Below are positions 2,295 to 11,737 of a stretch of 12,597 nucleotides of DNA, piece by piece (positions within the stretch are counted from its first letter, which is position 1; the number at the start of each line of letters is the position of its first letter). Position numbers and translations under genes: made by a program. This DNA comes from Sphingobacteriia bacterium (GTDB lineage Bacteria; Bacteroidota; Bacteroidia; Chitinophagales; Chitinophagaceae): NCBI GenBank assembly GCA_004293505.1, contig RDYY01000139.1, positions 1-12,597 of the forward strand, in the 5' to 3' direction. The notes below the pieces were generated by a model. That model saw nothing but the letters and a program-made list of their open reading frames with translations. It did no database searches and was not told the origin of the DNA.

Positions 2295-4445
2295 ATGGCT
2301 GATTTGAAATTTCAACGCAACTTCGGGATTGCCGCCCACATTGATGCCGGCAAGACCACTACTACCGAGCGTATCCTGCGCTACACCGGTATGATTCACA
2401 AAATCGGGGAAGTGCACGACGGTGCGGCAACCACCGACTGGATGGAGCAGGAGAAAGAAAGAGGGATCACCATCACCTCAGCAGCCGTAAGCTGTCAGTG
2501 GAATTTCCCTACCGTTCTGGGTAAAGCCACTGCCGATACCAAAAAATATTCTTTCAACATCATCGATACCCCTGGTCACGTGGATTTTACTGTAGAGGTA
2601 GAACGTTCCATGCGTGTATTGGATGGTTTGATTGCCCTTTTCTCTGCCGTTGACGGTGTAGAACCCCAATCTGAAACTGTATGGCGCCAAGCCAACCGTT
2701 ACAAGGTTCCCCGCATTGGATTTGTGAACAAGATGGACCGTGCGGGTGCCGACTTCCTGATGGTGGTAAACCAAGTAAAGGAAATGTTGGGTGCCAAAGC
2801 CGTTCCCTTGCAATTGCCCATTGGCGCCGAAGACAATTTCAAAGGCGTGGTGGACTTGATCAAAATGAAAGGCATCATCTGGCACATGGAAACCGAAGGC
2901 ATGACCTTTGATGAAATTCCTGTTCCCGAAGACATGGTAGAAGAAGCCAACGAATGGCGCCAAAACTTGGTAGAAGCCGTGGCCGAATACGATGATACCC
3001 TGATGGAGAAATTCTTTGATGATCCCAACAGCATCACCGAAGCAGAAATGCACGAAGCCATCCGCAAAGCCACCATCGACCTGAGCATTGTGCCCATGAT
3101 GTGTGGATCTTCATTCAAGAACAAAGGAGTGCAAACCGCTTTGGATGCAGTTTGTCGCTACCTGCCTTCTCCTGTAGACATTGAAGACACAGTGGGTACC
3201 GATCCTGATAGCGGCGAACAAATTACCCGCAAGGCCGATCCCAAAGAACCTTTTGCTGCCTTGGCCTTTAAAATCATGACCGATCCTTTTGTGGGCCGTT
3301 TGGCTTTCTTCAGGTGTTATTCTGGTCACTTGGATGCGGGTTCTTATGTTTTGAACGTGCGCAGTGGCAAAAAAGAACGCATCAGTCGGATCATGAAAAT
3401 GTTTGCGAACAAGCAAAACCCCATCGACTTCATCGAAGCCGGTGACATTGCTGCTGCTGTTGGTTTCAAAGAAATCAAAACCGGTGATACCCTTTGCGAT
3501 GAGAACCATCCCATCACTTTGGAAAACATGTTCATCCCTGAGCCTGTGATCGCCATTGCCGTTGAACCCAAGACCCAAGCCGACGTAGACAAAATGGGCA
3601 TGGCCATTGCCAAATTGGTAGAAGAAGATCCTACCCTGCGTGTGAACACAGATGAAGACACGGGTCAAACCATCTTGCGTGGCATGGGTGAATTACACTT
3701 GGAAATCATCATCGACCGGATGCGCCGCGAATTCAAAGTAGAAGTGAACCAGGGTGCTCCCCAGGTAGCTTACAAAGAATCCTTTGGCAAGCCCATCCAA
3801 CACCGCGAAGTGTTGAAGAAGCAGTCTGGTGGTCGCGGTAAGTTTGCCGATATCCAATTTGAATTGGGACCTGCCGATGAAGAGTGGCTGAAAGAAAACG
3901 AAGGCAAGAGCTTCCAATTTGTGAACGATTTGTTTGGTGGATCCATCCCCAAGGAATTTGTTCCTGCCATCATCAAAGGTTTTGAAACCTCAATGACCAC
4001 TGGTGTTTTGGCTGGCTACCCTGTCAACAACATGAAAGTGCGTGTATTTGATGGTTCTTACCACGATGTGGATTCCGATGCCATGAGCTTTGAATTGTGT
4101 GCCAAAGGCGGTTTCCGCGAAGCTGGCCGCAAAGCCAAGCCCACTTTGTTGGAGCCCATCATGAAAGTAGAAGTATTGACACCCGACCAATACATGGGAG
4201 ACGTGACCGGTGACTTGAACCGCCGTCGCGGTATGTTAGAAGGCATGGACAGCCGTGCCAACCTGCAAGTGATCAAGGCCAAAGTACCTTTGAGCGAAAT
4301 GTTTGGTTATGTGACCCAACTGCGTTCCTTGAGTTCTGGTCGTGCCACTTCTACCATGGAGTTCTCGCATTACTCTCCTGCGCCCACCAACGTGGCCGAG
4401 GAAGTGATTGCCAAGAACAAGGGCAAAGTGAAGATTGAGGACTAA
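2295..4445 (+). CDS. fusA: Translation elongation factor G
   Basis: This 716-residue GTPase drives translocation and, with ribosome recycling factor, splits post-termination ribosomes. The G-domain motifs are complete: G1 AHIDAGKT (14-21), G2 RGIT (56-59), G3 DTPGH (91-95) and G4 NKMD (145-148). Between G2 and G3 the chain is about 6 residues longer than in E. coli, as is common in this phylum. Domain IV and V blocks are recognisable, including [24 protein letters not shown] sequence and [10 protein letters not shown] near the C-terminus. I chose the ATG at 2295, which gives [20 protein letters not shown]. An upstream in-frame start at 2214 lies inside the preceding terminator and ahead of the promoter, so it is rejected. 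It is a single-gene unit with its own promoter and terminator; no tuf gene follows. Confidence 0.98.
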
Positions 4446-10603: not shown

Positions 10604-10942
10604 ATGAGCACAAGATTTAAAGCCAAATTCAGCATCAAAAAAGGGGATACCGTTGTGGTAATTGCCGGTGATGACAAGGATTTGAAAAAACCCCGCCAGG
10701 TGTTGGAGGTGATCGTGGACAAAGGCCGTGTGGTGGTTGAAGGCGTGAACATCGTCACCAAACACACCAAACCCTCTGCTACAAATACCAAAGGTGGCAT
10801 CGTGAAAACCGAAGCCCCTATCAACATCAGCAACGTGATGCTGTGGGATGCCAAGAAAGGCGAACCCACCAAGGTGAAGCGCACCCGCGAAGCAGGCAAA
10901 TTAATTCGTGTATCTAAAAAATCAGGGGAGGTAATCAAATAA
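10604..10942 (+). CDS. rplX: Ribosomal protein L24 (uL24)
   Basis: This 112-residue assembly-initiator protein of the 50S subunit binds the 5' part of 23S rRNA near the tunnel exit. The KOW motif is at about residues 10-27 ([19 protein letters not shown]). The family blocks [20 protein letters not shown] and [18 protein letters not shown] follow. The C-terminus ends in KKSGEVIK. Its stop overlaps the rplE start by one base (TAATG at 10940-10944), so the two are likely translationally coupled. The codons for GEV contain the only strong Shine-Dalgarno sequence in this run, serving rplE. Confidence 0.97.
10927..10932 (+). promoter_or_regulatory. Canonical Shine-Dalgarno sequence for rplE
   Basis: GGAGGT ends 9 nt before the rplE ATG and lies inside the last codons of rplX. 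No other start in the window has a match of this strength. It may support re-initiation at the overlapping TAATG, or simply reflect the codons needed for GEV in L24. Confidence 0.6.
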
Positions 10943-11444
10943 TGAGCACAGTAAAATATACACCCAGACTGGCCACGAAATACACCAAAGACGTGGTGCC
11001 CGCACTGATGAAGAAATTTTCATACAGCACGGTTATGCAAGCCCCCAAATTGGAGAAGATTTGCATCAACCGTGGTGTGAACGGTGCCGTGACCGATAAA
11101 AAATTGGTAGACATCGCCGTGGAAGAACTGAACATGATCACTGGTCAGAAAGCGGTTCCCACCATGTCTAAAAAAGACATCTCTAATTTCAAACTCCGCA
11201 AAGGAATGCCCATTGGCGCCCGCGTAACATTGCGTGGCGAAAAAGCGACAAAGCATTTGATGGCCGCGGCAACTATACTTTGGGTGTCACCGAGCAAATC
11301 ATTTTCCCCGAGATCGACATCGACAAAGTGAACAAGATCACCGGATTGGACATCACATTCGTTACCACTGCCAACACCAATGAAGAAGCTTACGAGCTTT
11401 TGAAAGAATTGGGTATGCCGTTCAAAGGAACCAAGAAAGATTAA
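10942..11444 (+). pseudogene. rplE: Ribosomal protein L5 (uL5), interrupted by an internal deletion and frameshift
   Basis: L5 is an essential 5S rRNA-binding protein of the 50S central protuberance and forms a bridge to S19. From the ATG at 10942, codons 1-101 are clearly L5, from [14 protein letters not shown] to [14 protein letters not shown]. After 11244 this frame degenerates into non-family sequence and stops at 11331. From 11244 the -1 frame reads [15 protein letters not shown], then [20 protein letters not shown], and ends KGTKKD with TAA at 11442-11444: the last 66 residues of L5. The block in between, in E. coli MWEFFERLITIAVPRIRDF plus RGL (22 residues), is absent. A single loss of about 67 nt explains both the missing block and the frameshift; restoring it gives about 189 residues, the normal length. 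As written, the gene cannot make L5. A sequence or assembly error is the likeliest cause; a true mutation would need a second rplE copy. Confidence 0.9.
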
Positions 11445-11467: not shown

Positions 11468-11737
11468 ATGGCAAAAGAATCAGTTAAAGCCAGACAAAGA
11501 AAACGCGAGAAAATGGTAGCCCAGTACGCCGACAAGCGTGCCGCGCTGAAAGCTGCAGGCGACTACGCTGCCTTGGACCAACTCCCCAAGAATGCCTCTC
11601 CTGTGCGTTTGAAAAACCGTTGTCAACTCACCGGACGTCCCAAAGGCTACATGCGTTATTTTGGACTTTCCCGTGTGATGTTCCGCGACATGGCCTTGAA
11701 CGGTCTCATCCCCGGTGTGAAAAAAGCCAGCTGGTAA
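11468..11737 (+). CDS. rpsN: Ribosomal protein S14 (uS14), zinc-free type
   Basis: This 89-residue protein of the 30S head contacts S3 and S19. It begins [20 protein letters not shown] and has the C-terminal signature [20 protein letters not shown] (about 44-63), then [14 protein letters not shown]. Only one cysteine occurs, in NRCQLTG, so the CxxC pairs of the zinc-binding form are missing; this is the C-minus type. Relative to the 101-residue E. coli protein, the middle insertion is shorter. The start at 11468 lies 23 nt after the rplE stop and has an A/C-rich context without a Shine-Dalgarno sequence. Confidence 0.97.

Follow-up and report, generated by a model that had tools for sequence, protein, structure and literature searches.

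A frame-breaking 67-nucleotide gap in rplE of a Sediminibacterium-group draft genome is almost certainly an error of assembly

Results

The window, meaning the whole stretch of DNA that was analysed, is the entire 12,597-nt contig C147 of the metagenomic draft G000, an assembly of the Sediminibacterium group with 1,853,336 bases in 483 contigs and a completeness of 88.17%. It carries rpsL, rpsG, the gene for EF-G, the S10 operon, and the spc operon as far as rplF, which is truncated by the contig end (12253-12597). The uL5 gene rplE lies on the plus strand at positions 10942-11444, at its expected place in the operon between rplX (L24; 10604-10942, plus strand) and rpsN (S14; 11468-11737, plus strand), both of which are intact by comparison with the single-contig genome G017. 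An earlier note on this DNA, made from the sequence, had described the neighbours of rplE as intact, and this holds throughout the window, where the 19 other genes compared, from rpsL to rplF with EF-G included, each align with G017 in a single frame; rplF is cut short only by the contig end. That end matches other contigs over 14 to 20 nt only, which is the chance level. SecY has no match among the readable contigs of the draft, which may reflect the masking of small contigs, and because of this masking its absence is not taken as evidence on how the operon continues. At the opposite end, a divergent gene resembling those for secreted proteins starts on the minus strand of positions 1-1110 and continues past the contig end; it shares about 42% identity with the corresponding gene of G017.

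The two parts of rplE are read in different frames. The 5' part (10942-11244, plus strand) keeps its frame through uL5 residues 1 to 101, shows 90% identity to protein P0062 (residues 1 to 108), and matches the uL5 N-terminal domain PF00281 (E value, 8.3e-22) with 77.7 bits, above the curated cut-off of 34.9. The 3' part (11244-11444, plus strand) encodes, in the other frame, the last 66 residues (codons at 11244-11441) followed by the stop codon (11442-11444), with 100% identity to residues 124 to 189 of P0062. The full C-terminal domain PF00673 is not present in the frame of the 5' part; only positions 35 to 94 of its 94 are found, and these lie in the 3' part. The open reading frame called mechanically at 10942-11331 ends in an out-of-frame tail (11245-11331, plus strand) that consists of 28 residues of unrelated sequence and is not a real coding end. 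The domain matches in each half thus agree with the earlier description of two recognisable ends of L5 in frames of −1 relation that meet at 11242-11244; the meeting point is 11244, and the gap lies at 11243/11244.

The relatives of the draft are titled Sediminibacterium and other Chitinophagaceae. Loci of 29 relatives were compared with the window, and 27 of them yielded an alignment, L023 and L029 having no usable match. All 27 have exactly 67 nt, or 22 codons plus 1 nt, that the window lacks within the junction GAAAAAGCGAC (11239-11249, plus strand), which occurs once in the window. The gene measures 503 nt in the window and 570 nt in 26 of the 27 relatives; the remaining one, L013, spans 461 nt owing to a separate gap at another place in rplE. 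A frameshift with a shortage of about 22 residues, both explained by one deletion of about 67 nt, had been proposed before, and the DNA alignment bears this out. The exact break point is ambiguous by one base, a single A common to both sides, and beyond this A the alignments contain no direct repeat flanking the lost segment.

The lost block corresponds approximately to residues 96 to 117 in E. coli numbering, by a constant offset of 6 (query residues 13 to 184 aligned to E. coli residues 7 to 178 of solved uL5 chains), and so lies outside the P-site loop formed by residues 73 to 80. This position bears on whether the shortened gene could be functional, with a −1 slip joining the two frames and a uL5 without 22 residues being used. 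According to a published study, E. coli cannot do without uL5, but survives, growing slowly, with a uL5 lacking loop residues 73 to 80 (PMC10531944). That deletion, like the gap in the window, is internal to rplE, and the frames in the window do stand in a −1 relation at the A run. However, the E. coli deletion as described there (PMC10531944) is in frame and removes 8 residues of the P-site loop, whereas the window has lost 67 nt elsewhere in a frame-breaking manner. The lost block is present in 27 of 27 aligned relatives, the A run forms no two-codon slippery heptamer in the reading frame, and, as the earlier note had pointed out, the joined frames would still lack the 22 residues, which are conserved. 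A functional short uL5 would also leave unexplained the six other breaks described below, and is hardly conceivable.

When 101 genomes of the genus, themselves taken from a larger group, were searched for rplE, 65 gave a match and 36 did not, the latter often being less complete drafts. Among the 64 matching genomes other than G000, the gene is full-length and free of stops in 62, four of which are single-contig genomes (G010, G017, G060, and G103). Only G023 and G091 depart from this. In G091, rplE is divided between two contigs (L169 and L170; C16 and C44) that overlap by exactly 99 nt, from residue 86 to about residue 117, and this overlap spans the place where the gap of the window begins. 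An exact terminal overlap of this kind is what an assembly graph broken at a fixed word length leaves behind. In G003, a contig stops 30 nt into rplE. The overlap in G091 and the contig end in G003 therefore show that assemblies do break at this conserved stretch of rplE. In G023 (L122, G023:C23, approximately 2970-2997), 109 nt are missing at a different place, also breaking the frame.

A real lesion could be tolerated if uL5 were supplied by a second, intact rplE elsewhere in the genome, as the earlier note had considered. Searches with PF00673 and with the protein of an intact relative found no other rplE in the readable contigs of the draft, an incomplete search since contigs shorter than about 3 kb are masked as N. 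This masking, together with the 88% completeness of the draft, leaves some room for a second copy. Yet rplE has a single match in 61 of the 62 genomes of the genus with a full-length gene, and the two matches in the remaining one, G035, are on two contigs. The operon copy itself is also constrained in both halves. Compared with G017, the 3' part shows 26 silent and 0 replacement codons and the 5' part 44 silent and 6 replacement codons, and in five further relatives, where differences are again mostly silent, replacement codons number 0 to 5 in the 3' part and 5 to 11 in the 5' part. These counts indicate strong purifying selection on both halves and, because both sides of the break are so constrained, a gene that was functional until very recently at least. 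Supply from a second copy is accordingly extremely unlikely. The relaxed constraint that would be a sign of a pseudogene was not seen in the remaining rplE against the six relatives, although a very recent loss would not show in this comparison. Among the 120 listed proteins of 7,978 matches, there is no near-identical intact uL5 of the same species, which counts against an assembly error; the best of these 120 are 89 to 93% identical over most of the open reading frame, with one at 77%, and their lengths are 185 to 193 residues except for P0108, a partial protein of 106 residues. The two copies in G035 are both full-length (C8 and C150) and are perhaps due to two strains in one bin.

The draft was scanned for further frame-breaking junctions with a codon-usage frame model, which is blind to deletions that keep the frame. 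The sample comprised 77 of the 483 contigs, of which 37 consist wholly of N (the longest, 2,867 nt) and 40 are readable (256,841 nt); with the window, the scanned set amounts to 41 contigs and 269,438 nt. The 40 readable contigs and the window contain zero N letters. A stricter first pass over 34 contigs flagged 6 rows, 3 of which are lesions, and a looser setting flagged 18 rows in the draft, 7 of which were confirmed against 6 to 27 relatives each. Besides rplE, with 27 relatives, these are a loss of 80 nt with a change of frame in uvrC, so named from Pfam (L196, approximately 9024, G000:C332; 8 relatives), and a frame-breaking loss of 29 nt in an unnamed conserved gene (L198, approximately 1650, G000:C139; 8 relatives). 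The loss in uvrC removes the start of the RNase H-like domain, so that PF08459 lacks positions 1 to 32 of its 159. The other four, each compared with 6 relatives, lie in genes that we take from sequence recognition to be ftsA-like (a loss of about 61 nt, with other small gaps in the same region; L200, minus strand), korB-like (20 nt missing; L267, approximately 2875), ftsW-like (32 nt missing; L273, approximately 2025), and galE-like (10 nt gained, through ten bases being repeated in tandem; L275, 2123-2142). The junctions have few bases in common between their sides, and mostly represent losses of 20 to 80 nt, with one short tandem duplication. The 11 other flagged rows (L174, L185, L194, the second of L198, L206, L207 on both strands, L208, L209, L266, and the minus strand of L275) were left out of the count; they resemble ordinary gene boundaries or non-coding strands, as judged by reading, with Pfam searches in addition for L185, L194, and the plus strand of L207.

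As a control, twelve stretches of 20,000 nt (240,000 nt in all) from the single-contig genome G017 were scanned, and 10 rows were flagged. None is a lesion; when read, they are ordinary gene ends and starts, and one row at the edge of a stretch proved to be an uninterrupted gene once the neighbouring DNA was added. Seven lesions against none has a probability of 0.012 at equal rates, in a comparison where treatment was not quite alike, the control being judged by reading and the lesions of the draft by alignment to relatives. In G023, the other draft with a gap in rplE, 17 readable contigs (144,772 nt) showed no lesion beyond rplE. A broken rplE thus need not come with a badly joined draft. 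The fault is therefore strong in the G000 draft and not general to all drafts.

Discussion

The rplE lesion is almost certainly an error of the metagenomic draft assembly, because several core genes elsewhere in the draft, unrelated to rplE, are broken in a similar way, and the real gene is in all likelihood full-length. The earlier note had favoured an assembly or consensus error on the strength of rplE and its neighbours, and that view becomes much stronger with the six other conserved, unrelated genes in which the frame is broken at a junction. It is difficult to see how a cell could live with its uL5, FtsA-like, and FtsW-like genes all broken. Were the draft faithful, rplE would carry a frame-breaking 67-nt deletion between two conserved halves, and an intact copy would have to exist either in sister cells or in unread regions of the genome, which is highly improbable. 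There is no new biology at the rplE break.

Errors of joining, gap closure, and consensus occur in short-read metagenome-assembled genomes. Draft G000 resembles such cases in being fragmented and in showing clean, frame-breaking gaps in conserved genes that are intact in single-contig relatives. It differs from the usual errors in their density, with 7 confirmed junctions in 269,438 nt, and in combining losses with one duplication and zero N. This density and this mix point to one faulty joining step. The losses, the short duplication, and the lack of N in readable contigs suggest contig ends that were butted together. In rplE, the ends of two contigs, separated by 67 nt in the real gene, would have been joined directly, so that the stretch between them went missing from the record and the frame was broken, while the living organism would have an ordinary full-length uL5 gene. 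Butting contig ends without gap letters would either lose the intervening sequence or keep an unmerged overlap twice, and the 10 nt repeated in tandem in the galE-like gene may be such an overlap. Removal of runs of N from scaffolds would also yield such junctions. A paper on exactly this butt-join error in drafts was not found in one open library of literature, which is not proof that none exists.

The junctions could also be read as natural. A real deletion allele, carried by part of the sampled population and taken as the consensus even though the normal gene persists in other cells, would account for a clean junction without an overlap of k-mer length, which normally should need spanning reads, and the 1 to 4 common bases at the junctions fit natural short deletions. 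But all seven breaks in 269,438 nt, several of them in core genes, would have to be major alleles, and one of the seven is a tandem duplication and no deletion at all. This makes a population allele very unlikely, and faulty joining remains the preferred reading.

The apparent loss of an essential gene in the G000 draft should thus be treated with caution and not be taken as biology, and the broken ftsA-like, ftsW-like, uvrC, korB-like, and galE-like genes show the same flaw. A rough extrapolation from 7 junctions in 269,438 nt gives about 48 frame-breaking junctions in the 1.85-Mb draft. Counts of pseudogenes or of gene losses from this draft would be unreliable.

Comparable interruptions were seen in other drafts in a survey of the operon, in which rows were set aside if they had been flagged only through an erroneous reference start (rpsL and rpsJ), distant relatives, or contig ends. 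The rplE of G023, rplN of G029, rpsH of L037, and rplO of G026 resemble the window in showing an abrupt loss or a gap of N in an essential ribosomal gene of a draft, and differ from it in the gene, place, or size of the break. The break in rplO of G026 (L124, approximately 3820-3920) is openly shown as 98 N, unlike that in the window. The rplE of L110 was flagged in the survey but reads intact. Both rplN of G029 (L123, approximately 7395, G029:C169) and rpsH of L037 (approximately 3916) are without their 5' ends, and at L066 (904-1299) the rpsH of another draft contains an in-frame stop.
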